IMG/VR virus record: IMGVR_UViG_3300043468_001166
Span: 1-46,359 of that record
Source: a virus
Strand: one strand, 5' to 3'
DNA: 46,359 bases
In this document: positions 26,014 through 43,019 of the stretch, piece by piece
Position numbering within the stretch: the stretch's first letter is position 1
Layout of the letters: each line of letters starts with the position of its first letter
Made by a program: the position numbers and the translations under genes
Notes under the pieces: model-generated
Told to the model about the DNA's origin: nothing
Databases searched by the model: none
What the model saw: only the letters and a program-made list of their open reading frames with translations

Positions 26014-26098
26014 GGGGTTGTGGCGAAATGGCAGACGCAGCGGACTTAAAATCCGCTGGGAAGTAATTCCCGTGTGGGTTCGAGTCCCACCTCCCCCA
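26014..26098 (+). tRNA. tRNA-Leu (TAA)
   Basis: 85 nt. Anticodon loop CTTAAAA gives TAA, with stem GCGGA/TCCGC, a long variable arm (GGGA/TCCC) as in Leu tRNAs, and T-arm GTGGG-TTCGAGT-CCCAC. The acceptor GGGGTTG against CTCCCCC has two consecutive mismatches (5:68 and 6:67), which may need repair, editing or tolerance. Reads TTA. Confidence 0.88.
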
Positions 26099-26216
26099 AT
26101 GATGATGACGATACACCGAAGTCGCCGGTCTTGTGTTCTGCAGTTTACTTCCTGACCTGCGGAACACGAGCGTACGTTGCGCTCGCCGGCGATTTCTTTT
26201 TTCTATTGGAGCTCCC

Positions 26217-26471: not shown

Positions 26472-26767
26472 GTTTTTTACACCAGAAATACGCGTTTCGA
26501 GAAGGGTGCTGTACGACCACGCTGGTCGACGCAGAAACTACGCGCAACACGCTGCGTGTTGATGGCCCGTGTTTTTACTGCAAAGAGCCGCAATCTGTCA
26601 CGGTTCCGGCGGAAGCGCTTATTCGGTTTGGGCAGGGCGATTTCGCTCAAAACTGTTTTCCAAACCTAACCCCGGGACAGCGCGAGTTCTTGATATCCGG
26701 GATTTGTGACCCGTGCTGGGATCAGATGTTTGGAGCCGATGAAGAAGATGAGGAACCTGACGCCTAG
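26468..26767 (+). CDS. Zinc-binding-like protein (99 aa)
   Basis: Overlaps the preceding stop. CFYC at about 35-38 and CDPC near 80-83 are likely zinc ligands. A short helix (LTPGQREFLISGI) precedes the second pair, and an acidic C-terminus ends the protein. Pattern resembles small phage zinc proteins. Its partner upstream has the same plan. Confidence 0.66.
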   Translation: MSFLHQKYAFREGCCTTTLVDAETTRNTLRVDGPCFYCKEPQSVTVPAEALIRFGQGDFAQNCFPNLTPGQREFLISGICDPCWDQMFGADEEDEEPDA

Positions 26768-26776
26768 GAGATCGAC

Positions 26777-27154
26777 ATGGCAGAGGAAGAAACAGTTGAT
26801 CGGTTTGGATGGCGCAATTCCCACAAAGACTCGCCTGCAATGGGGCAGGAAGTCTACTATTTCGGTCCCAACATAGGGATCGGAATCGGTCGGTACTCAT
26901 ACGAGGAAAACCGGTCATTTCGGCCGTATTCTTACGATGAAGCCGGCGTAAAAGTATATGACGACAAAGAGGTCGGGCTTTGTCCGCACATATTTACCAA
27001 CAATAAATGGGGCGTGGTGGACGCGTGCGACGCCCCGCGATGGCAACCGTATGACCCAGAACGCGCCAAAAGCTGGTCGCCTATGCCGCCAGTCGGATAT
27101 ATCCGTCAAATCGTGCACGATCTCGACGCAATAACATATGTCGACGAGAAGTAA
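26777..27154 (+). CDS. Hypothetical protein (125 aa)
   Basis: ATG is preceded by AGGAG. A Tyr/Gly-rich part (EVYYFGPNIGIGIGRY) and Trp/Pro-rich sections (DAPRWQPYD, SWSPMPPVGY) suggest a small beta-rich protein. The pattern is like DUF551-type phage proteins, where 'G.v.yf...G.gig.y' and a W..mP are typical, but this is not certain. Function unknown. Confidence 0.65.
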   Translation: MAEEETVDRFGWRNSHKDSPAMGQEVYYFGPNIGIGIGRYSYEENRSFRPYSYDEAGVKVYDDKEVGLCPHIFTNNKWGVVDACDAPRWQPYDPERAKSWSPMPPVGYIRQIVHDLDAITYVDEK

Positions 27155-27172
27155 CAACAGAAAGAAGGTAAG

Positions 27173-27367
27173 ATGCCAGAAAATGTTTTTCTTTTTCAGC
27201 TGTTAACAGCGGCTGAAAAAAATATGCGCGAGGCTCTGGAGCCTTTGCAGAGTTTCGAGGCCGATGCTAAACAAAAAGATTCGCCGGCTGCGGTTCGTGG
27301 AAGGATCGCAGCAGACGCGATACGCGCGGCGTTGTTCGCGTTGCAGACAGTCAAGGCGGGAGCATGA
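27173..27367 (+). CDS. Small helical protein (64 aa)
   Basis: AGAAGGTAAG leads to the ATG. All-helical, charged, with no domain. The stop lies 4 bases before the tRNA-Val sequence, so the pair may share a transcript. Confidence 0.6.
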   Translation: MPENVFLFQLLTAAEKNMREALEPLQSFEADAKQKDSPAAVRGRIAADAIRAALFALQTVKAGA

Positions 27368-27371
27368 ACAA

Positions 27372-27445
27372 AGCCGCATAGCTCAATTGGTCAGAGCACC
27401 TCGTTTACACCGAGGGGGTTGGGGGTTCGAGTCCCTCTGCGGCTA
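27372..27445 (+). tRNA. tRNA-Val (TAC)
   Basis: 74 nt. Acceptor AGCCGCA pairs with TGCGGCT. D-stem GCTC/GAGC, anticodon stem CCTCG/CGAGG, loop TTTACAC with TAC, T-arm with TTCGAGT. CCA not encoded. Reads GTA. Confidence 0.95.
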
Positions 27446-27512
27446 TTAAACCCGGTGTGGGGCGCATCACGTGTTTTCAGGCACACCACTGAAAACAATC
27501 ATGGAGGATTCT

Positions 27513-27890
27513 ATGGTCCGCAGTTTGCTGTGTCTGTTTTTGGTGGTGTCTGCCTTCACGGTCGAAGCAGCGCCACGGCGTCGTAGTTACACCTACACAA
27601 CCCCGAGCACGTCATCGATGCCGCGCGTGTCAAGCTACACGTCAAGCTCGATGCCGGTTCATTCCAGTGGCGGCACTTCTTCCGCTCAGGGCGTTGCCGA
27701 GATGATGGCGTCTCGGGGCGTCATGCAGCATTTCGGAGGCAACTCCGGATATGAAGGGGTCGGCACCGGATCGACGCCGGAACAGGCACTCGGCAATTGC
27801 TGCTATTCCAATAGCGGCATGGCTGTTGTTGATCAGGGCGTAGCCTGCGGCCGCAACGGCCGCTGGTACGCCTGCAAGCGTTACCGCTAG
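27513..27890 (+). CDS. Secreted protein with conserved Cys C-terminus
   Basis: 125 residues from ATG 27513, which is 4-5 bases after GGAGGATT. A signal peptide (VRSLLCLFLVVSAFTVEAA) ends near 20. A Ser/Thr-rich linker follows, then a C-terminal motif (STPEQALGNCCYSNSG, ACGRNGRWYACKRY). Similar 'S.eqA..NCC....' C-termini recall small exported proteins of Planctomycetota, which is from memory and not a search. The role is unknown. Confidence 0.72.
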   Translation: MVRSLLCLFLVVSAFTVEAAPRRRSYTYTTPSTSSMPRVSSYTSSSMPVHSSGGTSSAQGVAEMMASRGVMQHFGGNSGYEGVGTGSTPEQALGNCCYSNSGMAVVDQGVACGRNGRWYACKRYR

Positions 27891-27897
27891 GCCCACT

Positions 27898-27936
27898 GGC
27901 GGGCGCTGGAGGAAGCCCAAGCCTCTGGCGCCCGCC
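27898..27936 (+). terminator. Stem-loop without strong T-run before tRNA-Ile
   Basis: GGCGGGCGC at 27898 pairs with GCGCCCGCC ending near 27936. This is a strong 9-bp stem between the secreted protein gene and the tRNA-Ile. Lacking a T-tract, it may stabilise the upstream mRNA end or separate the tRNA rather than terminate transcription. Confidence 0.4.
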
Positions 27937-27940
27937 TCAC

Positions 27941-28016
27941 GGGGCGTAAGGTAAGCCGGTTGCATCCAGCACTCTTATAAGGTGCCCATAGGTAGGTTCG
28001 ACTCCTACACGCCCTA
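27941..28016 (+). tRNA. tRNA-Ile (TAT)
   Basis: 76 nt. Acceptor GGGGCGT pairs with ACGCCCT (one G-T). Anticodon stem GCACT/GGTGC, loop CTTATAA gives TAT, T-arm GTAGG-TTCGACT-CCTAC. The D-stem is weak (only two clear pairs). Reads ATA, a codon rare in many GC-rich hosts. CCA not encoded. Confidence 0.85.
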
Positions 28017-28035
28017 CTCACACTCGGAGACTGCG

Positions 28036-28461
28036 ATGAGTGACGTTCTAGTCGACATTCAGGAAGAGTACGGCTACCAGCATTGGTGGCTGCTCTGCAC
28101 AGAAAAAGAATTTGCAGATATTTGCCGGCGCTGGCAGACTATGAAAAACCTATGCTGTTTGGTGCCGGTAGACCTCGTGTTTCCCGGCGCCCGTGGACAG
28201 TTTAATCAATGGCCGCCGGAGGCCGCCTGCAAATCACGGGTAGAAAATGCCCGCGTAGTCCGCGCGCATGTACATCAGCACGACGATTCGTGGCTGGATG
28301 GCGTCACGTACAACATACCGGTCAGCGCCGACGAAAATGACGACTCTTTCGAGATTGACGGCGTGGTGTACACTGGCGAGCAAATCATAGCGTTGCTCGC
28401 CGAGTCGCGCGCCAAGCGCACGGCAGACTATTTCGCGCTTCATCCGGAGGACGCGGGGTGA
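28036..28461 (+). CDS. Hypothetical protein (141 aa)
   Basis: ATG 28036 after CGGAGACTGCG. 141 residues, acidic, with WW and CC pairs (QHWWLLCTEKEF, KNLCCLVP) and an FEIDGVVYTGEQIIALL motif. No domain is recognised. The stop overlaps the next gene by 4 bases. Confidence 0.67.
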   Translation: MSDVLVDIQEEYGYQHWWLLCTEKEFADICRRWQTMKNLCCLVPVDLVFPGARGQFNQWPPEAACKSRVENARVVRAHVHQHDDSWLDGVTYNIPVSADENDDSFEIDGVVYTGEQIIALLAESRAKRTADYFALHPEDAG

Positions 28462-28736
28462 AACTCTTGCTTTGCCCGGAATGTTCTGACATATTCAACC
28501 TGCAAGCACACGTTAAAATGTGCAGCTGCGGGCAAACGCGTGGTCAGTACATTGACAATATAAATGCTGTCTACTCTGGGGGTATACCTCTGGGGTTCGC
28601 TAACACCACGTTTCTTGAGGCGGTTGCAAATCAGCCTCAAGCTGGTGACGGCAAAACGTTTACTGCGTTTGTGATTCCTGTTATGTGTCCCACTTTCAAG
28701 GAGCTACCCGATGGCCTTTCGAAGAGTGAACGCTGA
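28458..28736 (+). CDS. Zinc-ribbon protein (92 aa)
   Basis: GTG 28458 overlaps the previous TGA; GGAGG is nearby. CPEC at 6-9 and CSCG near 22-25 suggest a rubredoxin-like zinc ribbon, a frequent find in small phage proteins. The rest has an amphipathic tail. Its 3' end overlaps the next gene by 26 bases. Confidence 0.62.
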   Translation: MKLLLCPECSDIFNLQAHVKMCSCGQTRGQYIDNINAVYSGGIPLGFANTTFLEAVANQPQAGDGKTFTAFVIPVMCPTFKELPDGLSKSER

Positions 28737-28878
28737 GCAGTATGTCGAGCTGTGTAACTTCTGCATGGAGAATGACATCGCCTACGAGCTAAAAACGCTC
28801 GACAAGACGACGTTGCTCTTCGGGCTCGACCGACGATTCTGGCATGCGATTGACTACGGAGCGCTCGCGTGCGTGTAG
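28711..28878 (+). CDS. Small hypothetical protein (55 aa)
   Basis: AAGGAG lies 9 bases before ATG 28711, and the frame closes at TAG 28876-28878, 3 bases before the tRNA-Glu. 55 residues with helical start (FRRVNAEQYVELCNFCMEN). It overlaps the upstream gene. No family is recognised. Confidence 0.6.
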   Translation: MAFRRVNAEQYVELCNFCMENDIAYELKTLDKTTLLFGLDRRFWHAIDYGALACV

Positions 28879-28881
28879 TTA

Positions 28882-28954
28882 GGCCCCATCGTCTAGAGGC
28901 CTAGGACACCACCCTTTCACGGTGGATACTGGGGTTCGAATCCCCATGGGGTCA
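28882..28954 (+). tRNA. tRNA-Glu (TTC)
   Basis: 73 nt. Acceptor GGCCCCA pairs with TGGGGTC (one G-T), anticodon stem CCACC/GGTGG, loop CTTTCAC with TTC, T-arm with TTCGAAT. CCA not encoded. Reads GAA. Confidence 0.94.
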
Positions 28955-28988
28955 GTGGTTCGATTTTCTTTAACAACAAAGGTTTCCC

Positions 28989-29147
28989 GTGAAAAGCCAG
29001 TATTTTTTCATCGCTGCCGCAGGGCTGAGTTTTGTCTTCAGTGTTAGTCTCTGGTTTGCCGGAGAGACTGATTTGAATCGGCAGCAGGCCCTTTTCGTAG
29101 GGCTGTGGGTGCCTAGTATCTTGGGTCTGGGGACACTCTTAAAGTGA
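28989..29147 (+). CDS. Two-helix membrane protein (52 aa)
   Basis: GTG 28989 preceded by AAAGG. 52 residues with two hydrophobic segments (YFFIAAAGLSFVFSVSLWF and ALFVGLWVPSILGLG). Its stop overlaps the start of the next gene (AGTGA), so the two are translationally coupled. A holin-like or signalling-membrane role is a guess only. Confidence 0.58.
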   Translation: MKSQYFFIAAAGLSFVFSVSLWFAGETDLNRQQALFVGLWVPSILGLGTLLK

Positions 29148-29245
29148 CTAACTTCACGATTTTCATCGTCGGAATTATCGTGACACTGATAACAGGAATG
29201 GGCGTTCTGCTCAGTCTTGTGTCCATTGGGTACAAAAAAAAGTAA
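29144..29245 (+). CDS. Single-helix membrane peptide (33 aa)
   Basis: GTG 29144 overlaps the upstream TGA. 33 residues with one hydrophobic segment (TNFTIFIVGIIVTLITGMGV) and a basic end (YKKK). The tight overlap with the preceding membrane peptide is the best evidence that it is real. Function unknown. Confidence 0.5.
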   Translation: MTNFTIFIVGIIVTLITGMGVLLSLVSIGYKKK

Positions 29246-29259
29246 GTATCTTCTGGCGT

Positions 29260-29333
29260 GACTCGGTAGCCCAACTGGCAGAGGCGCAGGATTTAGGTTC
29301 CTGTTGTTGTGGGTTCGACTCCCACCCGGGTCA
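29260..29333 (+). tRNA. tRNA with TAG anticodon (Leu CUA-reading?)
   Basis: 74 nt. Acceptor GACTCGG pairs with CCGGGTC, anticodon stem CAGGA/TCCTG, loop TTTAGGT giving TAG, T-arm GTGGG-TTCGACT-CCCAC. The variable loop is only 5 nt (TTGTT). A TAG anticodon reads CUA (Leu), but bacterial Leu tRNAs normally have a long variable arm like the one at 26014. It could be a Leu tRNA of unusual shape or another isoacceptor with a changed anticodon. Not an amber suppressor, which would need CUA. Confidence 0.85.
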
Positions 29334-29359
29334 TTGGTCTTTTTCTATAGGAGCGCATT

Positions 29360-29671
29360 ATGCGTATTTGGCTCGATGACGTTCGGCCCATGCCGGCTGA
29401 GTGGGACGTATGGCTCAGGACAGCCGAACAAGCTATTCTGGCTATCAAGCTTGGCGGCGTGACGGCTATTTCACTGGACCACGATCTCGGCGACGAGTCT
29501 GCTAAGACCGGCTACGACGTGGCGAAGTTCATCGAAGAAGGAGCCTTTAAGGATACAATAGCTCCCATAGAAATCTACGTCCACACCGCAAACGCGGCGG
29601 GCAGACAAAACATCATCCGTTCGATTCGCAAAGCCGAGAAGTTTTGGCATGAGCGACTCACGCGGACTTGA
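29360..29671 (+). CDS. cREC-type receiver-like protein
   Basis: 103 residues after GGAGCGC. The pattern matches the 'cyclic-phosphate processing receiver' domain: IWLDDVRP at 3-10 (D6, D7), SLDHDLGD at 38-45 (D40, D42), TGYDV and VHTANAAGR near 74-82 (H75). These fit the family's acidic and His positions. The family has been linked by Burroughs and Aravind to RNA-end repair systems. It lies between a tRNA and the tmRNA, which suits that role. Function not shown directly. Confidence 0.75.
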   Translation: MRIWLDDVRPMPAEWDVWLRTAEQAILAIKLGGVTAISLDHDLGDESAKTGYDVAKFIEEGAFKDTIAPIEIYVHTANAAGRQNIIRSIRKAEKFWHERLTRT

Positions 29672-29794
29672 CGATTCGCTTCGGCAAAAACGGTGCTCTG
29701 ATAGTTGGTAGAGCTTAATTGCGTTCAGCCCTAGTCGGTGTGTTTTCCTCCTTTCTTAACACCGGCCAAAAAATGCAGCCGTTTTCTCTTACTC

Positions 29795-30141
29795 GGGGGC
29801 GTACTGGTATCGACAGGATAAAGAAGGTAAAGACTGCGTGTCGTGGTTGATCGGGTGGCCACGTTAAAACTCGATTATGTTTCTAGCTGGCGCACATGCA
29901 CCGGCCCTCGCTGCCTGACCTAGGTTAGGTGGTGAGTGGGGCGTCCTGAGCCCCATCGCCCAATCAGGATGACGCCGATAATCGGCTGATCTGGCCCAGC
30001 AAGAAAGGGCAAGATGGTGGTAGCCCACCTGACGCCGATAATCGGCTAACTTTGGCAGTAGTGTAAACAACAACTGCCTACACACGTAGACGTTTTTACT
30101 AGGCATATCTCTGGACGCGGGTTCGACTCCCGCCGCCTCCA
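29795..30141 (+). ncRNA. ssrA: tmRNA
   Basis: 5' GGGGGCG (29795-29801) pairs with CGCCTCC (30134-30140) to make the tRNA-like acceptor. The 3' GGACGCGGGTTCGACTCCCG is the hallmark tmRNA T-arm. The tag frame starts after TAGCT at GGC 29889 and reads GAHAPALAA to TGA at 29916-29918; the ALAA end is the classic degron. A pseudoknot or hairpin motif TGACGCCGATAATCGGCT is present twice (29972-29989 and 30030-30047). It rescues stalled ribosomes by trans-translation. No CCA is encoded. One-piece form. Confidence 0.95.
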
Positions 30142-30144
30142 CTG

Positions 30145-31042: not shown

Positions 31043-31501
31043 ATGGACAAGCTGCTGTTTCTTGATGTCGATGGTGTGCTTAACAACGCCCGAATATTAC
31101 GCGCAGAAAGTATTTTTGGGCTCGGTTGCAAGCAATTGAGTCTTCTAAAGCTTATCGTAGCTAACACTTGTTGTGAAATCGTACTCTCGTCAACGTGGCG
31201 ACTGAACGACGAGCATAGAGAAGCGCTGCGTAACGCTTTTGAAGAACACTTAATACCTATGTGGATCGGGCAAACGCCTGATTTGGGCATTTGCATGCGT
31301 CGTGACGAGATACTTTCGTGGATGATTGGGCATGAGGCGCCGGCCAAAGTCGTTATTCTCGACGACGACAAGGACGCAATGCTGGTAAACGCGCCAGAAC
31401 GCTTCCGAGAACGGCTTTTTGTGCACACTAACTTCGATCATGGTCTTACGTTAGACCACGCGGAGGCGATTTTGGAGTTTTTTAAGGAGGACTGTAAGTG
31501 A
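31043..31501 (+). CDS. HAD-like phosphatase (SAK-type)
   Basis: 152 residues. Motif I is FLDVDGVLN with D8 and D10, motif II is IVLSSTWR with S50/T51, and motif III/IV is VVILDDDKD at 103-111. This matches the HAD subfamily called HAD_SAK (Swiss Army Knife RNA repair-like). It would hydrolyse phosphate esters. The family has been tied to RNA repair gene clusters, which fits with the cREC-like and 2H-like proteins here. Stop overlaps the next GTG. Confidence 0.72.
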   Translation: MDKLLFLDVDGVLNNARILRAESIFGLGCKQLSLLKLIVANTCCEIVLSSTWRLNDEHREALRNAFEEHLIPMWIGQTPDLGICMRRDEILSWMIGHEAPAKVVILDDDKDAMLVNAPERFRERLFVHTNFDHGLTLDHAEAILEFFKEDCK

Positions 31502-31725: not shown

Positions 31726-31805
31726 CGTAACTCCTTATCGCGCAGTAGTTTACGACCGCTGGCATATGCTATTTGTCGTAAATGTCTGTGCGGTAAGGAG
31801 TTACG
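31726..31805 (+). other. Long imperfect hairpin, ~80 nt
   Basis: CGTAACTCCTTA (31726-31737) pairs perfectly with TAAGGAGTTACG (31794-31805). CGCGCAG (31739-31745) pairs with CTGTGCG (31786-31792), and TTTACGAC (31749-31756) pairs with GTCGTAAA (31775-31782), giving 27 pairs. Ends ~30 bases before a T-run and box AGCTAATAGCGC. It may be an RNase III-type processing site or a small RNA. Confidence 0.55.
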
Positions 31806-31855
31806 CAAAATACACCAAACGCAACGATCCGTTTTTTTAGCTAATAGCGCCCCTG

Positions 31856-31861
31856 TATACT
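31856..31861 (+). promoter_or_regulatory. Candidate -10 box (TATACT) before short acidic peptide
   Basis: CTGTATACT lies 25 bases before the ATG at 31886, just after the box AGCTAATAGCGC at 31839-31850. Weak promoter candidate. Confidence 0.3.
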
Positions 31862-31885
31862 CATTTGTTTACACAGGAGGGCGCT

Positions 31886-31957
31886 ATGGATACCTGCAGC
31901 TTCGATTTTGAGGACATTATGTCCTTCCTGTTCGACGACGACTGGGACGCCGAATAG
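31886..31957 (+). CDS. Acidic peptide (23 aa)
   Basis: GGAGGGCGCT precedes the ATG. The 23 residues include CSFDFEDIMSFLF and an acidic end (DDDWDAE). Codon-by-codon it reads without interruption, and the strong ribosome site argues for translation, but with so few codons the call is modest. Confidence 0.42.
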   Translation: MDTCSFDFEDIMSFLFDDDWDAE

Positions 31958-31982
31958 CCCTAAATACCCCCTATGGCGAATA

Positions 31983-32017
31983 GCTAAATATAGGCCAAAA
32001 ACAGGGTATATGAATTG
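31983..32017 (+). promoter_or_regulatory. Copy 2 of the 35-bp promoter-like element, before RNA A
   Basis: GCTAAAT, seven bases, AAAAACAGGG, TATATG, AATTG. The first helix of RNA A (GACGGG at 32017) starts where transcription would begin, about 5-6 bases after the TATATG. Confidence 0.72.
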
Positions 32018-33024
32018 ACGGGGATAATAGGTATTGCCTATAGACCCGTCCCGGAACCCGCTACGGTGAAAGTGGGACCAGACCTGCAGCAGCAGTGTTC
32101 TGGGCTTAATACTGCGGGGAAGCGCCGCAGGGCTGATGATCGGCCGCCACAATCCGTCGGGTCCGTTGCAGTGGACCAGTGAGACGTTAAAACAGAATCT
32201 CGACTGCGCGGCCTAATACGCCGTAACGTTCTGGCTGTAAAGTCAGATCGTTATCCGCACCGCTACAGGTGTGGGTGAGCCGGCCCTTCTCGATGGGGTC
32301 TGGTTTCCCGATGGGGGTGTGCACTCATTAGAGCACCTCCATTAAGACGTTGTGGCGCCTCTTCTGCGCGACCAACGTACGGCCTGTGTCAATATAAGTC
32401 GTACCCAAGGTACGCTTTTGAAACAGGGTTTGCTGCTAATTCCTCCAGCGCAGCACACGGTTTTCGCAAGCCGTCCAATCGGGAGTCGATTCAGTGTAGG
32501 GAGACAAAGTAGCCATGGCGAAATGTTTCCAGCAGTGTTGACAGGGCGTAACGCACCCTGTGTGTGACACACTGCGATCTACAGCTGCAATCGGCTGCGA
32601 ACCCATCTTCGGTTCGTGAGTGGAGGACAATACACGCTAGCCGCAAGGCTGGCACGTCGTTTCTTCCGACGTAGCGGAAGAGGTTTGACCAACAAGCCTA
32701 ACTGTTGGTGATCGTATGTGGGTTAAACCACAAACGTTCGCGAGCCGCTCAGTCGCCAAAGTTCCAAGAGCCCTTAGTTGCGTTACGGAAGTGAAACGCA
32801 ACGGCTAGCCGTGTAGCAGGAACGTGTATTAAGACACGTACACGGCACAATAAACGCCTACCACCGGGCGATATGGCGTGGCTGCCGCACGAGGGAAGTA
32901 ACGTGCGTGGGGACCGGCACCTAGCCGGGGCTGTGGACGCACAGTTGACGCTTAAATGGAAGACGCGGCGAGGTGCACCTCAAAGCGAGCCGGGTTCGAT
33001 TCCCGGCATAGTGTCTAGTTTTTT
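32017..33024 (+). ncRNA. RNA A: ~1.0-kb structured non-coding RNA candidate
   Basis: No convincing reading frame covers this 1-kb gap. Perfect or near-perfect local helices cover it: GACGGG 32017/CCCGTC 32045, CCCGCT 32057/AGTGGG 32071, CTGCGG 32112/CCGCAG 32125, CCGCACC 32255/GGTGTGG 32268, ACGTTG 32347/CAACGT 32373, GCTAGCC 32636 with a GCAA tetraloop and GGCTGGC 32647, GTTGCGTT 32777/AACGCAAC 32795, GCCGTGT 32808/ACACGGC 32840. A long-range helix (ACCAGACC 32077 with GGTCTGGT 32297) closes a domain. A tRNA-type T-arm (GCCGGG/CCCGGC with loop TTCGATT) lies at 32989-33007, followed by a T-run. The nearest known type is GOLLD, which is not confirmed. Confidence 0.72.
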
Positions 33025-33101
33025 GGCAAGGTACCGTTCCCTGCCACCCCATCTGAGGGCTTTTGAACGGACGCGTGTCTCGAAAGAGAAAGGGGAGTGC
33101 T

Positions 33102-33974
33102 ATGAGCACTTTCAAGTCAGTTGTCGCCAGCCCGTTTTACGGGTTCGGCTGGGTCGCTGGTCAGATCAAGAACGGCTACGACAAGGCGGTGAACGCCACG
33201 TCGTCGGCCGCGTCGCAGGTGGCCACCGCCGCCACCTCGACGGCCAAGGCCGCCAAGGCCAAGGCCACCAAGGCGGGCAAGGCCGTGAAGGGCGGCGCCA
33301 AGGCGGCCAAGGCTGCTACGGTTAAGGCCGGCAGCTCGGCCAAGGCGAAGGTTGCGTCCTTCGCCCGCCACGCCGCCGCCGATGCCCGCGGGCTCGGCGC
33401 CATGCTGTTCGGCATGGTCAAAGTGGCCGCCGTGGGCGTTGTCACGATTGCCACCGCGGTTCTCCTCGGTGTCGTCAAGACGGTGGGCTTGGTGGCCCAC
33501 GCCGTGGGGCTGATTGCCCTCGGCGTGGCGGCGTTGGTGGTGACTAGCTTCTCGCTGGTTGCCATTGCAGCGTTCTGCGTGGCGTTTCTCGCAACGCTCG
33601 CCGTGGTGTTCATCGTCCGCGGAATCTTCACAGCGCTCGCGGCTGTGGGGCGGTTTCTGACCGGCGAAGGCGGCATGGTTATCGCGACCGTGTTGCACGA
33701 CCTGTCGGTGTTCTGCTGCTTCCTTGCCGCCGTTTACGCCTGCGTTGCGGTGGCGGCGGTGGCCATTCCGGCGCTCGGGATTGCCGCCGCCAATGCTGCC
33801 GCCGTGGCGGTGATCGCCACGTGGTGTGCCCTGCTGGGCGCGGGAACGGGGATTGCCGGCCTTCTGCTGGAGGCCGCCAACCGCCTCCCGGAGGTTGTGG
33901 TGTATGCGCCGCCCAGTCGGCGTATCCTGCCTAACGACGTCTATCCGGGCGTCATCGGCACCGCGACTGCCTGA
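33102..33974 (+). CDS. Lys/Ala-rich multi-pass membrane protein
   Basis: 290 residues from ATG 33102 after AAGGGGAGTGC. N-terminal ~95 residues are Ala/Lys-rich (AKAAKAKATKAGKAVKGGAK), like histone H1 tails. From about 105 onward, five or six hydrophobic segments (for example VAAVGVVTIATAVLLGVV) span the membrane. High GC at third positions sets it apart from most genes in the window. Possibly a nucleic acid- or membrane-linked shell protein; no family is assigned. Confidence 0.7.
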   Translation: MSTFKSVVASPFYGFGWVAGQIKNGYDKAVNATSSAASQVATAATSTAKAAKAKATKAGKAVKGGAKAAKAATVKAGSSAKAKVASFARHAAADARGLGAMLFGMVKVAAVGVVTIATAVLLGVVKTVGLVAHAVGLIALGVAALVVTSFSLVAIAAFCVAFLATLAVVFIVRGIFTALAAVGRFLTGEGGMVIATVLHDLSVFCCFLAAVYACVAVAAVAIPALGIAAANAAAVAVIATWCALLGAGTGIAGLLLEAANRLPEVVVYAPPSRRILPNDVYPGVIGTATA

Positions 33975-34052
33975 CTAAGGTCGGGTAGTAAACATTGACG
34001 CGCACACACGCGTGGAGGGCAGCAAGCCACCTCCTTACCAAAAAAGAATTGC

Positions 34053-34087
34053 ACGGGCCGGTCACGCCGACGCAGGCCCGTTTCTTT
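34053..34087 (+). terminator. Terminator hairpin downstream of the membrane protein
   Basis: ACGGGCC (34053-34059) pairs with GGCCCGT (34075-34081) and a T-rich tail follows (TTCTTTT). Confidence 0.75.
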
Positions 34088-34132
34088 TATCTATTCCCAA
34101 TCCCACATCCTTAAGAAAGGAACGCGTTAATT

Positions 34133-34759
34133 ATGGGAATTCTGGACACCAAGGCTGCCGTGGCGTGCACGGTTGCTCACGAGTCGATTCAGCAGATGCG
34201 GAAGTATGGCGACCGGCGCTATTACACGCACCCGCTGACGGTGGCCGCGCTCGTGCACACGCTGCCGGGCACGGACGAGGCGATGTTCGCTGCGGCGTGC
34301 CTCCATGACGTCATCGAAGACGTCTACCCGAAGAACCCCGCCTACGGCCCCGCGTGGGTTGCGAACAACTTCGGCGAGGAAGTGCTGCTGCTCGTTCATG
34401 AGCTCACCAACGAGTTCACGAAAGAGCGGTATCCCGACCTCAACCGCAACGAGCGGAAGCGGCGGGAGAGTCTGCGGCTCGCCGACATCTCCGACGCCGC
34501 GAAGGTTGTGAAGCAGGCAGACCTGTATCACAACAGCACGGAGATCAGCCCTGACACCCGCTTCTGGGGTCAATGGTTGAAGGAGAAGAACGAGCTCGAC
34601 GAGCTCATCGGCGCGTGGGAGGACCGCGAGTGCGGCTTCCTCACGGGTGGCGACGTCTGGAGTCTTGTCGGCTCTGGCGAGTTCAAGATGCTCGTCGCTA
34701 CGGCGCACGAGATCGACGAGTTCTACAAGGTCGCCGACTGGGGCCTTGTGACTGCGTAA
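34133..34759 (+). CDS. HD-domain hydrolase, RelA/SpoT-like
   Basis: 208 residues. H33 in RRYYTHPLTVA, H58-D59 in AACLHDVIED and D130 in KQADLYHNS match the metal-binding H...HD...D positions of HD hydrolases, and the layout most resembles the ppGpp hydrolase domain (SpoT/MESH1-like) in 'R..YI.HPl.VA' and 'LHDvvED'. It may degrade (p)ppGpp or another nucleotide. A phage-encoded alarmone hydrolase could relieve stringent response, which is inference. The ribosome site AAGAAAGGAACG precedes the ATG. Confidence 0.78.
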   Translation: MGILDTKAAVACTVAHESIQQMRKYGDRRYYTHPLTVAALVHTLPGTDEAMFAAACLHDVIEDVYPKNPAYGPAWVANNFGEEVLLLVHELTNEFTKERYPDLNRNERKRRESLRLADISDAAKVVKQADLYHNSTEISPDTRFWGQWLKEKNELDELIGAWEDRECGFLTGGDVWSLVGSGEFKMLVATAHEIDEFYKVADWGLVTA

Positions 34760-34770
34760 ACAATTGGCGC

Positions 34771-34800
34771 GGCAGGGAGTCCTGCCCTCCCGCACCTTTT
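34771..34800 (+). terminator. Weak terminator after HD gene
   Basis: GGCAGG (34771-34776) pairs with CCTGCC (34781-34786) with loop GAGT. A C-rich run and TTTTG follow, so this is a low-strength terminator just before the copy-3 box. Confidence 0.45.
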
Positions 34801-34819
34801 GTTTAGCTATTAGCGCGTA

Positions 34820-34854
34820 GCTAAATATACGACAAATAAACGGCATATCTAATG
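34820..34854 (+). promoter_or_regulatory. Copy 3 of the 35-bp promoter-like element
   Basis: GCTAAAT, seven bases, AAATAAACGG, CATATC, TAATG. The box AGCTATTAGCGC sits at 34805-34816. The gene at 34943 starts 89 bases downstream. Confidence 0.73.
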
Positions 34855-34942
34855 AGTACCGGGAATCATATTGCCACTGGTACTTGAGTTTTAAGCCGCA
34901 CATCCGGCTAGCTCCACAAGGCAATTCTGAAGGAGCCCACAA

Positions 34943-35365
34943 ATGGCATCTATCTACACCGCCGTCCTCCTGACCGAAGAGTCCCGCCAGAACCTGATCG
35001 CGTTCTACGGTCTCACGTCGTTCTACGCGGAGGGTTGGGTCATCAAGGCCCACCACATGACGATCGATACCAAGTCTGCGGATAAGGCCGGCGTCGCGGA
35101 CTTGGTCGGCAAAGAGTTCACGATGGACGTGACCGCCGTCGGCAGGCTCATGGTGGACGACACCCGCGGCATCGTCGCCGTGACTGTCGAGACTGCGGCC
35201 CCGTCGAAAAACGCCATCAAGCACGTCACGGTGGCGCACGCGGATGGCGTCAAGCCTATGATGTCTAACAACATCACCGACTGGCGGCCCGTCAAGCCGG
35301 GCACGCTCACGCTCACGGGCGTCGTGTGCATGCTTGAGTCGGCTCCCGTGCCGGCGAAGAGCTGA
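34943..35365 (+). CDS. 2H phosphoesterase-like protein
   Basis: 140 residues after AAGGAG. Two H-x-T motifs (H38-M-T40 and H94-V-T96) with hydrophobic neighbours (HHMTI, HVTVA) match the 2H phosphoesterase signature for 2',3'-cyclic phosphate or 2'-5' RNA ends. Short length fits a minimal single-domain 2H protein. It would process RNA ends, consistent with the HAD- and cREC-like genes upstream. Confidence 0.78.
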   Translation: MASIYTAVLLTEESRQNLIAFYGLTSFYAEGWVIKAHHMTIDTKSADKAGVADLVGKEFTMDVTAVGRLMVDDTRGIVAVTVETAAPSKNAIKHVTVAHADGVKPMMSNNITDWRPVKPGTLTLTGVVCMLESAPVPAKS

Positions 35366-35410
35366 ACACTCGCGGCGGCTTACAACGCCGCGCAGTAGGT
35401 CTGCATAGAC

Positions 35411-35445
35411 CAGCCCCCAAACCGAAAGGTGCGGGGGCTTTTTTT
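35411..35445 (+). terminator. Strong terminator after 2H gene
   Basis: AGCCCCC (35412-35418) pairs with GGGGGCT (35433-35439), then seven T to 35445. The box AGCTATCAGCGC begins at the next base (35446). Confidence 0.9.
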
Positions 35446-35459
35446 AGCTATCAGCGCGT

Positions 35460-35494
35460 GCTAAATATGGAACAAATGCGCGGCATATTGATTG
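35460..35494 (+). promoter_or_regulatory. Copy 4 of the 35-bp promoter-like element
   Basis: GCTAAAT, seven bases, AAATGCGCGG, CATATT, GATTG. Preceded by the box AGCTATCAGCGC at 35446-35457 and a terminator. The small gene at 35552 starts 58 bases after it. Confidence 0.75.
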
Positions 35495-35551
35495 TGCGCC
35501 AGTGATTTTTTGTTGGCGCGGGTTTGTTGACAACTGCAAAAGGACCTTGCG

Positions 35552-35653
35552 GTGTTTGAATTCTTTGACAACATGTCGCTCAGCTCCTTGATGGCGTTCG
35601 CGTTAAGTACGTCATGGGTGCTTAGTTCTTTGTGTGAATTGTTCGAGGAGTAA
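35552..35653 (+). CDS. Short peptide (33 aa)
   Basis: GTG 35552, 7 bases after AAAAGGA. 33 residues with a Leu/Ser-rich amphipathic part (SLSSLMAFALSTSWVLSS). It lies 58 bases after a promoter element, as do the genes at 24332 and 37313, supporting it as a real first gene. Confidence 0.5.
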   Translation: MFEFFDNMSLSSLMAFALSTSWVLSSLCELFEE

Positions 35654-35678
35654 CGCTCTTTAAGAAGGGAGTCGTCCG

Positions 35679-36176
35679 GTGGATATTTTTCTAGACATAA
35701 AAAGGCAGCAAGAATACGCGAAACAGCTGGAAGACGGCGACAGGCGTAACGTGGAAGACTGGGCCCGCAACCAAGAGCGCCGTAATGAGGCAAAGCGCCG
35801 CGGCCTTTTTCAGCGCGATAAGCCCAAAGAGCGCCGCATTGCTATTTTTCAGCGCTGGCAAAAAATGCGTAAAGCGAGTGCCATCAAGCTGCGCGCCCCG
35901 GACGGCGACTCTAGGTTTTGTTTATGTAAATGCGGTCGGCCCAAGGCGTGCGCACAAACGCACTGCTACGACTGTCAGGACATGATGTTTATTGTCCGGC
36001 ACAGGATACCAATGTCTGGCGCAGTAGAAGTCGAAAAGCGATATGGGCGAATATACGAAACGCCCCTGCTGCGCCACGACATCGACTACCGATCGTCTAG
36101 GTACGAGGACAGTGAGAACTTCGGTAGCCTCCACAATGTGATTCGGGCGATGGAAGACTCCCTAGCGTACGATTAA
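35679..36176 (+). CDS. Basic Zn-finger-like protein (165 aa)
   Basis: GTG 35679 with AAGGGA 10 bases upstream. N-terminal half is a charged coil rich in R, K, E and Q (KRQQEYAKQLEDGDRRNV). A Cys cluster (CLCKCGRPKACAQTHCYDC) near 81-99 probably binds zinc. It may bind nucleic acid. No family is assigned. Confidence 0.68.
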   Translation: MDIFLDIKRQQEYAKQLEDGDRRNVEDWARNQERRNEAKRRGLFQRDKPKERRIAIFQRWQKMRKASAIKLRAPDGDSRFCLCKCGRPKACAQTHCYDCQDMMFIVRHRIPMSGAVEVEKRYGRIYETPLLRHDIDYRSSRYEDSENFGSLHNVIRAMEDSLAYD

Positions 36177-36178
36177 AC

Positions 36179-36213
36179 GCTAAATAGTCTCCAAAAGCCT
36201 GACATATACAGAA
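36179..36213 (+). promoter_or_regulatory. Copy 5 of the 35-bp element (tandem, upstream)
   Basis: GCTAAAT, seven bases, AAAAGCCTGA, CATATA, CAGAA. The last pentamer departs from ATTG, making it the weakest copy. It starts 3 bases after the stop of the preceding gene and lies 53 bases before copy 6. Confidence 0.6.
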
Positions 36214-36231
36214 AATGCGGGTTTCTGCTGA

Positions 36232-36266
36232 GCTAAATATTCAGCAAAAACACGGCATATCTAGTG
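36232..36266 (+). promoter_or_regulatory. Copy 6 of the 35-bp element, before RNA B
   Basis: GCTAAAT, seven bases, AAAAACACGG, CATATC, TAGTG. RNA B's first hairpin starts at 36270, four bases downstream. Confidence 0.73.
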
Positions 36267-36267
36267 C

Positions 36268-36941
36268 TCAGCGCGCTAGCTGTCGACGGCTACGCGCTAA
36301 TTGACGTGAATTCGTTCTGAGCCTGCGCGGTGTACCATTGCTTGAACGGATGCTTCCGTGGTGATTCGAGCAGTGAGTAAAAGCTGCGCAGGCTTTTCCG
36401 TAAATACGTCCGCGGCAGGCAGTTAAGCCGCGTAGAAAACTGCCAATACACTCGACCTTCGCCTTGCGAGAATGCGGCGAACAGAATCTGCCGTCACGGG
36501 CACCATCTTTGGTGGCTCGAAAGTTGGGCGATCATCGGCCCAAAGGCGGGATAGGACGCACACTATCCGCGCTACGCGATTTGTAAATCCCAAAGTGGAA
36601 GGAGGAAATGTCGAATTCCCAAAGCAAGGAATTCCGTAGCAGGCTGTGTAAGACTGCGCAAAAAGCATTTCCAAGCGCCCCGGACCGCTAGCTCAAACAC
36701 AACGACGCTAGAAGAGGGTTCGGTACCGGATGGGCCGGTCGTGATTCATAGCATAAACCTGCGTTTGTTACTTTGGTCGGCCAACCAAATAATAAACAAA
36801 GGCGCTACTGCAGTCGGTCGTACAACTGACTGTAGAGTAATCGCGTGACTGATGAGGATAGCAAACACGTAGTTGGGGAACTCGTAGCAGGTTAGCGTCT
36901 GCTGCGATGCTTCTTCCCAAAGGTGGTGCCCGTGACGGCAG
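36268..36941 (+). ncRNA. RNA B: ~0.67-kb structured non-coding RNA candidate
   Basis: No gene fills this 800-base gap. A 5' hairpin (AGCGCGCTAGC 36270-36280 with 36289-36298) begins at the promoter exit. AGCCTGCGC (36320-36328) pairs with 36386-36394, with TGCTTGAA/TTCGAGCA and CGGA/TCCG inside. CGCGGC 36411/GCCGCG 36427 and GGCAGTT 36418/AACTGCC 36438 interleave as an H-type pseudoknot. The 18 bases 36488-36505 are exactly complementary to 36924-36941, and 36506-36508 extend the pairing to 36921-36923. Inside lie GGATAG/CTATCC, GAATTCC/GGAATTC, GTAGCAG 36884/CTGCTGC 36899 and others. A long RNA like ROOL or GOLLD is the closest analogy; family not confirmed. Confidence 0.75.
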
Positions 36942-36976
36942 TTGTTAGTTTAACCCCTAAGAAAGGATGGACTCTC

Positions 36977-37192
36977 ATGTTGTTTATTGGAATGCTCGGT
37001 GCGGTGTTCGTGCTCGGTGCGGTTGCTGGGACCATCAGCGACATGGTCAATACCGAAAAGCCTAAAATGGCCACCACGTTTACTCGTGTTTCGACCAAGG
37101 TCACGAGCGGTATCGTCGACGTGGACCCGAATGGCAACATCATCAGGATCACCGACGCCTCCGGGCGCGTGGTCTATGAGGAGGGGGCTTAA
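36977..37192 (+). CDS. Small membrane protein (71 aa)
   Basis: ATG 36977 fits GAAAGGA about 9 bases upstream and leaves the RNA B closing helix outside the gene. One hydrophobic segment (LFIGMLGAVFVLGAVAGTIS) is followed by a soluble tail (ITDASGRVVYEEGA). It lies right after RNA B, so RNA B may be its mRNA leader or processed from it. Confidence 0.66.
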   Translation: MLFIGMLGAVFVLGAVAGTISDMVNTEKPKMATTFTRVSTKVTSGIVDVDPNGNIIRITDASGRVVYEEGA

Positions 37193-37220
37193 CGCCCTTT
37201 CTTTTAGCTATCAGCGCCCA

Positions 37221-37255
37221 CCTAAATTAAACACAAAAGCCCGTCATATTTATTG
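37221..37255 (+). promoter_or_regulatory. Copy 7 of the 35-bp promoter-like element
   Basis: CCTAAAT (one change), seven bases, AAAAGCCCGT, CATATT, TATTG. Box AGCTATCAGCGC at 37206-37217 precedes it. Gene 37313 starts 58 bases downstream. Confidence 0.7.
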
Positions 37256-37312
37256 TTGTACGACATAGCTGCCAGTGTCGGCAGTTTATTTTCATCAAAG
37301 GAGGACCCGATC

Positions 37313-37847: not shown

Positions 37848-38921
37848 ATGCCATTCAAATCTGAAAAGCAGCGTCGTTTTCTCTGGGCCTCGCATCCCGA
37901 TATAGCGAAGCGGTGGGCGCACGAATACCCCGAATCAAACAAAGGCCTGCCTATGTACGCGCACAAGAAGAAAGACGAGAAAGAGGCCGCATTAACAGCA
38001 ATTCACAGTTACGTGAATAAACTTAACAATTTGTTAATATTGCCACATACCGTACAAAACAAGGCTTTTTCGAAAGTTGCCAATTCAAAGCAGACATATA
38101 TTGAGATTCCCCACAGCGAAAAGCCAACGTACGCTGGGGAAGAACGGGAGAAAAACCCCGAACATCGCCCAGACTTTGATGTCACGCAATCAGGCACAGA
38201 ACAGCCTAAAAAACGCCAAGAAAACGCAATTAACTCGCTTCTCAAGAAGATCGCTTTGGTCGTAGGGCCCAACATCAGAAAGATAAAAGAAGAGCAAGAC
38301 GCTGCGCTGGAAGGCCGCGAACCCGCCTACGTGCCGACAAACGCGGACGTAAAGCGCTATCCCGTCGCGACAACGGGAATTATGCCGCCCATGGGCTCGC
38401 AACCACAGCCACAACAGCAAGCGCCGGTCAAGCAACCGCAGTCTCGCCCTTCTGCGCCCCCTGTCGGAAACGGTAGCAGCACGCAATCTCGTCCCATTCA
38501 GTCTTTAGGCGGCTTGTCTGTAAAAAACGAACTCACCGGAAACTCGGGTTCTGCTGGCGGACGTAATCCGGGCGCAGGTATCAAAACGTCAAGCAGTCCA
38601 GCGTGGCAACGAAGCGCTGGTAAAAATGACGAAGGCGGCTTAAACGCCAAAGGTCGCGCCAGCTACAACAACGCTACGGGCGGCAATCTCAAAGCCCCCG
38701 TGACCGAGTCCAGCCCCAAAGGCGATCGGGCAAAGCGCCAGAACTCATTTTGTTCGCGGATGTGCGGTATGAAAAAACATGAGACTGGCAGCAAGACCAA
38801 GAAAGACCCCGATTCCCGCATCAATAAAGCTTTGCGTAAATGGAACTGCAAGTGCAGCAGTGTCAATGGTCTAGTTGAAATGCTGCGTAATTCGCGTTTT
38901 GCCGGCCCCCAATCCCGATAA
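37848..38921 (+). CDS. DUF6321-like phage protein
   Basis: 357 residues from ATG 37848. N-terminus (MPFKSEKQRRFLWASHPDIA, then RWAHEYP) is a common phage motif. The middle is Pro/Gln-rich and disordered. C-terminus has RAKRQNSFCSRMCGMKKH, then DPDSRINKALRKWNCKC, which matches the DUF6321-type Cys motif often seen in large-phage proteins. The N-terminal and C-terminal modules are joined by a long linker. Function unknown; possibly virion-packaged. Confidence 0.72.
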   Translation: MPFKSEKQRRFLWASHPDIAKRWAHEYPESNKGLPMYAHKKKDEKEAALTAIHSYVNKLNNLLILPHTVQNKAFSKVANSKQTYIEIPHSEKPTYAGEEREKNPEHRPDFDVTQSGTEQPKKRQENAINSLLKKIALVVGPNIRKIKEEQDAALEGREPAYVPTNADVKRYPVATTGIMPPMGSQPQPQQQAPVKQPQSRPSAPPVGNGSSTQSRPIQSLGGLSVKNELTGNSGSAGGRNPGAGIKTSSSPAWQRSAGKNDEGGLNAKGRASYNNATGGNLKAPVTESSPKGDRAKRQNSFCSRMCGMKKHETGSKTKKDPDSRINKALRKWNCKCSSVNGLVEMLRNSRFAGPQSR

Positions 38922-40992: not shown

Positions 40993-41076
40993 ATGATGTA
41001 CCGAGACATACCCCGGCTAATTCGGCTCGTGATTCTTTTTGGGATACTGGTCTGGCTTGTGGGGGCGACTCTATGA
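40993..41076 (+). CDS. Single-helix membrane peptide (27 aa)
   Basis: Starts at ATG 40993 (a second ATG follows at 40996). 27 residues with one hydrophobic segment (LIRLVILFGILVWLVGA). The stop overlaps the start of the helicase gene by 4 bases, the best sign that it is real. Weak ribosome site. Confidence 0.42.
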   Translation: MMYRDIPRLIRLVILFGILVWLVGATL

Positions 41077-43019
41077 CCACAGCAGCAGGTATGTTCTATG
41101 GCGGCAGCGCGCTAAACAAAGCAGCCGAACTCGTACCAGACGTCCAGTTACAAGACCACCAGCAGCGCATTGCAGACCGTATCTCGGGCGATGACCCCAG
41201 ACTGCTTGTGTATCACGGACTGGGCTCTGGCAAGTCCCTGTCAGCTCTGGCAGCAGCTGAGAAAGCCCGCACAGAACAGGGCGGCGAATATGGCGTCGTC
41301 GTACCAGCCAGCCTCAAGGGCAACTTCGAGAAGGAGATCGCCAAGTTCACGCGCGACTCGAACCCGGAAGTCATGAGCTACACGGGCTTGGGCATGGGCA
41401 AGGATTTTACGAATAATCCCGACACGCTGGTGATGGACGAAGCAGCTCGGCTAAGAAATCCCACAGCCGCGAGCACATCTGCCGCTATGCGCGCAGCCCA
41501 GAAAGCCAAAAGACTGGTCCTGCTCACAGGCACGCCGATCACCAATGAGCCGAGTGATATCGCCAGCTTGCTGTCTATGCTGCACAACAAACAAATCACG
41601 CCGCAGCAATTTGATCAGCAGTTTGTAAGCGAGAAGAAAGTTCGGCCGGGTATCTTAGCGTGGTTGCGTGGCATAAAGCCCGGTATGAAGCCAGTTATCA
41701 AGAACGAAAGCAAGCTGCGCGCATTGCTAGAGGGCAAAGTCGATTACTTACCCAGCAAAACACCTGAAGGCGTAAACGTTAACGAAGAAGTCGTGCGTGT
41801 GCCGCTGTCAGCCGAACAGCAGCGTATCCAGAAGGCTATTCGGACCAAGATTCCGCCGGGCTTTCTCTGGAAACTGGACCAAGAGTTCCCGCTGTCGCGC
41901 GATGAGCTGGCGAAACTAAACAGCTTTATGACTGGTCTGCGCCAAGTGAGTCTAAGTACACAGCCGTTTCGAGCTGACAAAGACATGTACCGCGCGTATT
42001 CTCAGTCCAGCAAATTACAGAAAGCCATGGCAGACTTGCAGGAGACGCTCAAGAGTGATCCGCGCAAGAAGGCTATTATCTACTCTAACTTCATTGACGC
42101 TGGATTAAATCCATATGCTGCGGCGTTAGAGAAGAACAAGATTCCCCACGCGTTCTTCCACGGCGGCATGCCCGTCAAAGCGCGTCAGCAGGCACTCAAG
42201 CAGTACAACGAAGGCAAGCTCAAGGCGCTCTTGCTCGGCCCCGCAGCAGCCGAAGGTATCTCGACTAAGGGCACCAGTCTCATTCAGCTTCTGGACCCGC
42301 ACTGGAACGAAGCACGCAGTCAGCAAGCTCGTGGTCGTGGTCTGCGCTTTGACTCCCACGAGGGCCTGCCCGAAGAGCTGCGCAACGTAGCTGTCCGGCG
42401 ATATCTTAGCTCGTCAGAAAATCCGGGCATTGTTGGCAAATACTTGCTGGGCAGAAAGCGTGAACGCACCGGTGACGAAGTGCTGGAAAGACTCACGGCA
42501 GAGAAAGAACAGTTTAATGACGTGTTCCGCAACTTACTCCGCGAAGTCGGCAGCGAGAAGCAAAGTGACGAAGCGCCGCCAATAGCGAAAAAAAAGAAGC
42601 CGGTACCCGCGTTCACACCTGACTTTACGCCAGAACAGCTTGAAGAACTGGGCGTCTATAACTCGCTGTACCGCGGCATTGGCCCCCGTCTGGCTAGCTT
42701 GGGCGAATGGAAACCAGAGTGGGTGAATCCTGTCGACCCCAAAGGCTGGGCGCAGTGGTACAAGCGTTATTCTGGTGGCCGGAGATTAGGCGACGAAGAT
42801 GAGCGTCAAATCAAGCGCTGGGCCAATTTTAAGTCCCGTCACGGCGGCCCATTTGTTAAAAAACCCACGCCTCGCCGCGGTTGGGCGCTGCAGAACTGGG
42901 GGATTGATCCTAGCCTGCTCGTTCCCGAAGAAGAATCTGATAAAATCAAAACCATGCTGCAGAACTATGCTGTTAAACAAACGGCAAAGCATGTAGCGAA
43001 TACAACGCCGGAACAGTAA
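41073..43019 (+). CDS. SF2 helicase, SNF2-like, with C-terminal DUF5824-type module
   Basis: 648 residues. Walker A GLGSGKS at 49-55, motif II DEAA at 122-125, motif III TGTP at 152-155, and motif VI-like QARGRGLRFDS near 417. Between them a C-terminal helicase lobe (AIIYSNF, FFHGGMPVKAR). After ~510 a separate module reads LGEWKPEWVNPVDPKGWAQW, then RRLGDEDERQIKRW and RHGGPFVKKPT. This is seen in giant virus/phage proteins (DUF5824-like). It may remodel DNA or RNA during packaging or replication; fusion to the extra module is unusual. Confidence 0.85.
   Translation: MTTAAGMFYGGSALNKAAELVPDVQLQDHQQRIADRISGDDPRLLVYHGLGSGKSLSALAAAEKARTEQGGEYGVVVPASLKGNFEKEIAKFTRDSNPEVMSYTGLGMGKDFTNNPDTLVMDEAARLRNPTAASTSAAMRAAQKAKRLVLLTGTPITNEPSDIASLLSMLHNKQITPQQFDQQFVSEKKVRPGILAWLRGIKPGMKPVIKNESKLRALLEGKVDYLPSKTPEGVNVNEEVVRVPLSAEQQRIQKAIRTKIPPGFLWKLDQEFPLSRDELAKLNSFMTGLRQVSLSTQPFRADKDMYRAYSQSSKLQKAMADLQETLKSDPRKKAIIYSNFIDAGLNPYAAALEKNKIPHAFFHGGMPVKARQQALKQYNEGKLKALLLGPAAAEGISTKGTSLIQLLDPHWNEARSQQARGRGLRFDSHEGLPEELRNVAVRRYLSSSENPGIVGKYLLGRKRERTGDEVLERLTAEKEQFNDVFRNLLREVGSEKQSDEAPPIAKKKKPVPAFTPDFTPEQLEELGVYNSLYRGIGPRLASLGEWKPEWVNPVDPKGWAQWYKRYSGGRRLGDEDERQIKRWANFKSRHGGPFVKKPTPRRGWALQNWGIDPSLLVPEEESDKIKTMLQNYAVKQTAKHVANTTPEQ

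Follow-up and report, generated by a model that had tools for sequence, protein, structure and literature searches.

A predicted large structured RNA closed by a long-range helix in the tmRNA-to-DUF6321 slot of a ~200-kb phage

A large non-coding stretch in a ~200-kb phage (IMG/VR record IMGVR_UViG_3300043468_001166, a fragment of the virus, positions 1-46,359 of which are henceforth called the window) most likely holds a genuine large structured RNA, RNA B, that is predicted to be locked by a long-range helix. RNA B lies between the tmRNA (29795-30144) and the gene of a DUF6321 protein (37848-38918), and the same slot of related phages carries another RNA, henceforth called Family I, whose closing helix covaries. 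Because of this covariation in the relatives, the large helix-closed RNAs of the tmRNA-to-DUF6321 slot are held to be real, and they diverge fast.

Closing helix and predicted fold of RNA B

The closing helix of RNA B, P1, joins a 5' strand at 36488-36512 to a 3' strand at 36917-36941 (+ strand; inverted-repeat search, shuffles, and predicted pair probabilities). It consists of 25 unbroken pairs, 24 of them Watson-Crick and one a G.U (T36506/G36923), and encloses 404 bases. An earlier note, made from the letters alone, had described exact complementarity between 36488-36505 and 36924-36941, which the sequence search recovered as an exact 18-bp inverted repeat, and had let the helix extend over 21 bp to 36508/36921; this pairing is real, but its length was understated, as it reaches 36512/36917. 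That such a helix is very unlikely to arise by chance was borne out by dinucleotide shuffles of the 710-base stretch, none of which (0/2000) contained a repeat of at least 18 bp with arms at least 100 bases apart, the longest reaching 15. Besides that of RNA B, two inverted repeats of at least 16 bp within 1.2 kb were found in the window, namely the hairpin after the tmRNA and one in the gene at 33220. In a looser scan, the RNA B stem comprised 28 positions with 24 Watson-Crick pairs, and the stem in the gene at 33220 comprised 25 positions with 21.

The in silico fold that the earlier note had called for gave the same helix, with probabilities of 0.96-1.0 for all 25 pairs of P1. Inside it, the minimum free energy fold places a multibranched core (36513-36916) made of two hairpins, a large branched domain, and one further hairpin; the inner pairs are less certain, and those of the stem that closes the large domain have probabilities of 0.33-0.34. 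Folding energy corresponded to z = -7.8 for RNA B, -5.7 for a coding control stretch, and -4.4 for the opposite strand. Since coding DNA also reaches such a value, folding z-scores were not used as main evidence.

The core is preceded by a 5' domain. A hairpin directly at the promoter exit, already pointed out before, is present in the predicted fold at 36270-36298 (12 bp, apical loop UCGA, pair probabilities 0.97-0.99) and is followed by a second hairpin structure with stems of 13 and 10 bp (36303-36410, pair probabilities 0.87-1.0). The H-type pseudoknot proposed for 36411-36444 was recovered by exact search with two perfect stems, 36411-36416/36427-36432 (stem 1, 6 bp) and 36418-36424/36438-36444 (stem 2, 7 bp), and loops of 1/2/5. 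Among perfect pseudoknots of this size it is the only one on the + strand of the window, with none on the - strand, and one of 30 shuffled windows contained such a structure. Smaller pseudoknots (5/5 bp) are common, with 18 in the window compared to 8.2 in shuffles.

Promoter, coding content, and transcript end

A phage promoter motif, CTAAATA-N14-GGCATAT, was located at 36233-36260 on the + strand (PWM window beginning at 36225, 51.4 bits), with a predicted start near 36267. A weaker copy lies in tandem upstream (36180-36207, +; PWM window beginning at 36172, 13.3 bits) and has one mismatch to the motif in the identical 205-kb record of the same species. With a spacer of 14, 25 distinct strict instances of the motif were counted, and with spacers of 12, 13, 15, or 16 none. 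Seven PWM sites of at least 10 bits were found in the window, all on the + strand and including those of RNA A (31976), the neighbouring large non-coding stretch, and of RNA B (36225 and 36172), compared to an average of 0.1 in shuffled windows. Nine records of ~200 kb carried 7-13 motif sites on one strand and 0-1 on the other when up to two mismatches were allowed, and the reversed motif pattern appeared 0-3 times over both strands of these records. Judged from its sequence distribution, the motif looks like a phage-specific promoter class.

A matching promoter had been taken to suggest that RNA A and RNA B form a paired system. Both do carry the motif, but it also precedes ordinary genes (sites at 34813, 35453, and 37214), hence the promoter by itself does not link the two RNAs. 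For the 82 listed sites with a called gene downstream, the gene was at 30-140 nt in 55 and at more than 400 nt in 12; in RNA B, about 710 nt lie between the predicted start and the next ATG.

No gene was called in 36177-36922. The RNA B stretch has no open reading frame of at least 60 aa on the + strand; the - strand has a single one, of 83 aa (36423-36674). A protein-coding reading was rejected on the basis of the missing gene call and of Family I, in which open reading frames of at least 50 codons differ in frame and place between members.

Downstream of the helix, a 71-aa open reading frame (36977-37192, +) is preceded by the ribosome-binding site AAGAAAGGA (36959-36967), which ends 9 bases before the ATG. 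Matches of the encoded protein to PHROGs families reached E 0.049 at best, and a clear relative of it was not found. Between 36908 and the ATG at 36977 no terminator-like site was detected. The hairpin nearest to the start of the 71-aa gene is at 36947-36973 (probability 0.74), and a weak terminator-like hairpin lies within the RNA B core at 36882-36907, such sites numbering 6 in the region against 3.1 expected. As no clear terminator follows RNA B, the transcript most likely runs on into the 71-aa gene, which is probably the downstream gene in the transcription unit of RNA B. The RNA of ~0.67 kb ending at 36941 that had been put forward earlier is hence retained with respect to the helix, which does end there, but not with respect to the 3' end of the RNA, which is not established.

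Searches for homologues of RNA B

Over the RNA B region, the window does not differ from three records of its own species, which therefore give no pairing information; an exact search for the RNA B pseudoknot in IMG/VR returned these three records only. BLASTN of window positions 31900-37200 against 50,697 phage records found no relative. Comparison of RNA B with 25 diverged relatives (see below) gave short, chance-like matches in 14 of them (best E 0.018), and comparison with 46 further loci and regions, i.e., 32 new loci, 13 slot regions, and L010, gave no match. The latter is a distant HD-protein locus that, apart from the own species, was all that was retrieved when neighbouring proteins were used as bait, and it contained neither a promoter hit nor an RNA B match. 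When a covariance model built on a portion of RNA B was run on 64 sources, it recovered RNA B itself and then a weak match (E 0.12) in two near-identical loci; the broad covariance-model searches covered the collection except for L021, L022, L098, L099, L108, L111, L116, and L119. Against Rfam, positions 36180-37000 gave only chance-level miRNA and snoRNA matches at E up to 10, and none of the cis-regulatory (riboswitch or leader) models matched RNA B at the same threshold. Since no homologue was detected outside its species, RNA B is without covariation of its own. Among the open-licence PMC papers listed by literature searches, none describes RNA B or the Family I RNAs, judged by title and the beginning of the abstract.

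Family I RNAs in the same slot of related phages

Relatives were gathered via the helicase at 41073-43016, which gave 25 diverged relatives and, when used as an alignment, 32 further loci. A tmRNA above the Rfam cut-off was present in 15 of the 22 records searched, with 13 tmRNA-bearing records coming from relatives outside the species, and the slot comparison was carried out on the tmRNA-to-DUF6321 interval of 13 relatives. Gene content of the slot differs almost completely: when ten window proteins, including one taken out of frame, were tried on it, DUF6321 matched in all 13 relatives, and one other protein matched clearly in two. In several of the 13 intervals there are at least two long non-coding gaps, and the intervals have conserved non-coding blocks in common. 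Two non-coding gaps of at least 400 bases flanking one short gene were seen in six of the 13 relatives (L082, L085, L086, L089, L090, and L091), which partly agrees with the earlier idea of a paired system.

The Family I RNA (~450 nt) was found in eight of the 13 slot intervals (L081, L082, L084, L085, L086, L089, L090, and L091) and additionally in L122. In the eight slot members, the first 25 bases pair with a strand that ends 349-412 bases further on. Across all nine sequences, 13 of the 25 pairs of this closing helix (P1 of Family I) have changed on both sides, and 99.6% of the 225 cells are paired, a share that drops to 32-49% when the helix is slid. The covariation score was 0.418, compared to 0.197 in shuffles and at most 0.119 in slid helices; one of five covariation measures, the number of further pair types, was within shuffles for P1 (81/500) and likewise for the full structure (96/500). 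One pair of P1 is a G.U in eight of the nine members, and other wobbles are also present; the retention of this G.U speaks for pairing in RNA and not in DNA. Viewed as a long-range stem, the helix comprises 27-29 positions with at most one mismatch and 23-25 Watson-Crick pairs in eight members. The earlier idea of a large RNA closed by a long-range helix is thus supported within the window and, independently, by a covarying helix in the same slot of relatives.

Covariation extends beyond P1. The full Family I structure has 164 pairs, of which 31 have changed on both sides (22 of these outside P1), with 98.9% of cells paired; these counts are based on eight sequences, as the 3' part of L081 aligns poorly, while all nine were used for P1. 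The 3' domain contains an H-type pseudoknot, in which three of the five pairs of stem 2 and none of stem 1 are compensatory. By eye, a sigma70-like promoter with -35/-10-like elements (TTGAC...TACAAT/TAGAAT type) precedes the RNA in six of eight sequences viewed, and eight of nine are followed by a T-run terminator. One conserved Family I motif was found in ten IMG/VR contigs, each of which belongs to the helicase relatives, whereas the GTDB genomes searched did not contain it; a comparison of Family I with Rfam 15 gave no match above chance. In a tenth relative (L083), P1 is capped directly as a hairpin, and the 3' domain and terminator are kept in absence of the core, which is hence dispensable there. 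The remaining four of the 13 intervals (L087, L088, L092, and L093) had no Family I match, and their long-range stems have at most 16 Watson-Crick pairs, which is background-like.

A hairpin loop of Family I reads CCGUACA, with the palindrome GUAC, in eight of nine members, and CUGAUCA, with the palindrome GAUC, in L081. This switch is a single event and hints at oligomers of Family I, for which it is suggestive but no proof.

RNA B and Family I share the slot, a closing helix of 25 pairs, an H-type pseudoknot, and the lack of an Rfam match above chance, as well as the order of branches inside P1 (hairpin, hairpin, branched domain, hairpin). This order was found in seven of eight singly folded Family I members and in 6 of 200 shuffled RNA B cores, i.e., it is matched by chance in 3% of cases, in a comparison that was made after the folds had been seen. 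The two differ in the place of the pseudoknot, which lies on the 5' side in RNA B but on the 3' side in Family I, and in their boundaries, Family I having a sigma70-like promoter and a terminator, whereas RNA B has the phage motif and no clear terminator. No match between them was found with nhmmer. The Family I covariance model gave no hit on RNA B at default settings and 7.3 bits when unfiltered (E 0.16 for 5.4 kb; next best 6.3 bits), and when the search was turned round, the partial RNA B model did not hit any member of Family I. The hexamer CGUACA also occurs in a hairpin loop of RNA B (36819-36824), which chance could give. Two alignments of RNA B and Family I, one drawn by eye through this loop and one following the covariance match at UAAUAAAC, contradict each other, and neither is claimed. 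RNA B is here treated as an analogue of Family I that occupies the same slot, and possibly as a remote relative of it. A new RNA superfamily with a ~25-bp lock, a shared core layout, and an H-type pseudoknot, in which RNA B and Family I would be remote members, alike in architecture but no longer recognisably so in sequence, that form homo-oligomers via palindromic loops (GUAC/GAUC; CGUACA), is regarded as rather doubtful.

RNA A and surrounding genes

RNA A (31984-33050, +) is preceded by its own promoter motif (39.8 bits) and contains one weak 45-aa gene call on the - strand (32187-32324), made in one run. Its hairpin motif UAAUAC-N-GGGAAG-N-GGGC (32107-32133) also occurs in L088 (5996) and L093 (5009 of the reverse complement) and in no other of 71 sequences scanned, two further matches being the same records again. 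As the motif is common to long non-coding stretches of two relatives, RNA A may have relatives of its own. Its 3' end looks tRNA-like by eye (32955-33020), as it combines the perfect T arm GCCGGGTTCGATTCCCGGC with what may be an acceptor stem; ARAGORN calls no tRNA. Also by eye, a similar arm is present in the second-slot RNAs of L089, L091, L085, and L122.

Further large RNAs were observed among the relatives. The second slot of L086 (5403-5960) and L082 (6378-7050) holds a second large RNA that is 90% alike over 469 nt and ends in a terminator followed by AGCTATT; the L086 sequence matched nothing in Rfam beyond chance level at E up to 2. L106 (2194-2740) and L107 (2620-3160) share a promoter-driven non-coding stretch with a T-run terminator and a weaker closing pairing of 10-11 Watson-Crick pairs over a span of ~446 bases, possibly a third such RNA.

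Upstream in the window, a Pistol ribozyme (25146-25216, 58.1 bits) marks the start of a tRNA cluster, and six tRNAs together with the tmRNA, which has the tag GAHAPALAA, occupy 25404-30144. Beside the RNAs are encoded a HAD domain of Swiss Army Knife RNA-repair proteins (31043-31498), an HD_4 hydrolase (34133-34756), and a below-cut-off match to a tRNA-ligase phosphodiesterase domain (34943-35362); a possible reading of these three matches is an RNA-repair or counter-defence island. Elsewhere in the window, a 1029-aa open reading frame with collagen repeats (296-3382) and a 696-aa open reading frame matching collagen-like tail fibre families (14885-16972) were found.

Proposed role of RNA B and alternative explanations

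The leading explanation, given a probability of roughly 0.5, takes RNA B to be a real, large and structured RNA from a fast-diverging set that has a free-standing structural role and is freed by cleavage of P1. The ~200-kb phage group would make a set of such fast-diverging RNAs during infection, RNA B being one of them. Transcription, with its predicted start near 36267, would proceed through the 5' domain and the locked core into the 71-aa gene. The locked core would carry the function, not as a message but as a structural RNA that serves as scaffold or decoy, much as is supposed for GOLLD and ROOL. P1 as a long perfect duplex would be cut by a double-strand-specific nuclease, e.g., RNase III, by which the core would be released from the mRNA of the 71-aa gene. 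The surroundings of tRNAs, tmRNA, RNA-repair, and hydrolase genes would fit a role in sustaining translation under host defence.

The main rival, second to the free RNA and in our estimate somewhat unlikely, takes RNA B for a giant cis-acting leader, of riboswitch or leader type, that controls translation or stability of the 71-aa message. The stretch free of terminator-like sites from 36908 to the ATG at 36977 and the ribosome-binding site at 36959-36967 speak for it; moreover, RNA A is also followed by a gene (33102), and the L088 RNA with the RNA A hairpin motif leads into a called gene (6083). Leaders after this promoter are, however, usually short (55/82 at 30-140 nt), Family I has its own terminator in the same slot, and the weak terminator-like hairpin at 36882-36907 is situated inside the RNA B core. 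Nor was a competing pairing shown by which the start site of the 71-aa gene would be masked, the nearest hairpin being that at 36947-36973. That P1 is mainly a processing site, at which RNase III matures the operon and the enclosed sequence is a by-product, appears improbable: the 25 uninterrupted pairs in RNA B, the stems of 27-29 positions, mismatched at one position at most, in eight Family I members, and the directly capped P1 of the core-less L083 would all agree with it, but the core pairing of Family I is itself conserved, with 22 of 31 compensatory pairs outside P1.

Explanations that dispense with a structured RNA are very unlikely. A DNA-level element, i.e., a small MITE-like mobile element or a recombination site with 25-bp terminal inverted repeats, would account for an inverted repeat framing a 454-bp segment and for one relative without the Family I core. 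Yet the segment is present in single copy both in the window and in the 205-kb record of the same species, no direct repeat is visible by eye at its borders, most Family I members are directly flanked by promoter and terminator, and the arms of Family I keep a G.U in 8/9 along with other wobbles, which DNA repeats would not favour; the mobile element was rejected based on the single copy and the conserved wobble. Hardly any weight is likewise given to a chance inverted repeat in an untranscribed spacer of fast turnover. It would agree with the lack of a detected RNA B homologue, with the good folding of coding DNA (z -5.7), and with the long-range stem of 25 positions and 21 pairs that a gene in the window holds, but 0/2000 shuffles reach the repeat of RNA B, and the lock recurs with covariation in the slot.

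Comparison with known large RNAs

GOLLD is described by Kretsch et al. 2025 (PMC12286853) as a large, highly structured phage RNA that is often near tRNA genes and sometimes has tRNAs in its linker, and ROOL as a large phage RNA near tRNA islands with predicted pseudoknots; the functions of both remain poorly understood according to the same paper. The earlier note had suggested a search with the covariance models of these two RNAs, which gave no match in the window at E up to 5 (31800-37300) or up to 10 (36180-37000). Both models also matched none of 16 phage records at E up to 1; the control genomes gave no match to either model, and the tmRNA and tRNA models do match in the same cmscan pipeline.

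OLE, a large RNA mostly found in Bacillota (PMC12054373), forms a dimer via a symmetric kissing loop with a palindrome that is not the same in all homologues, and such switches in OLE and GOLLD are presented as support for symmetric kissing loops in PMC12286853. Family I has an OLE-like palindromic loop (GUAC in 8/9, GAUC in one) and no Rfam match above chance; compared to GOLLD, it is set apart by its length of ~450 nt and its own terminator.

GOLLD (RF02032) and ROOL (RF03087; Rfam model of 574 positions) resemble RNA B in that they are of similar size, come from phages, and lie near tRNAs. Large ornate RNAs have been described from phages in small number, and here one slot holds different large folded RNAs across related phages. 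Family I adds a covariation-supported structure without a match in Rfam 15, and its core-less variant shows which module can go, making the function of such RNAs testable within one phage group.
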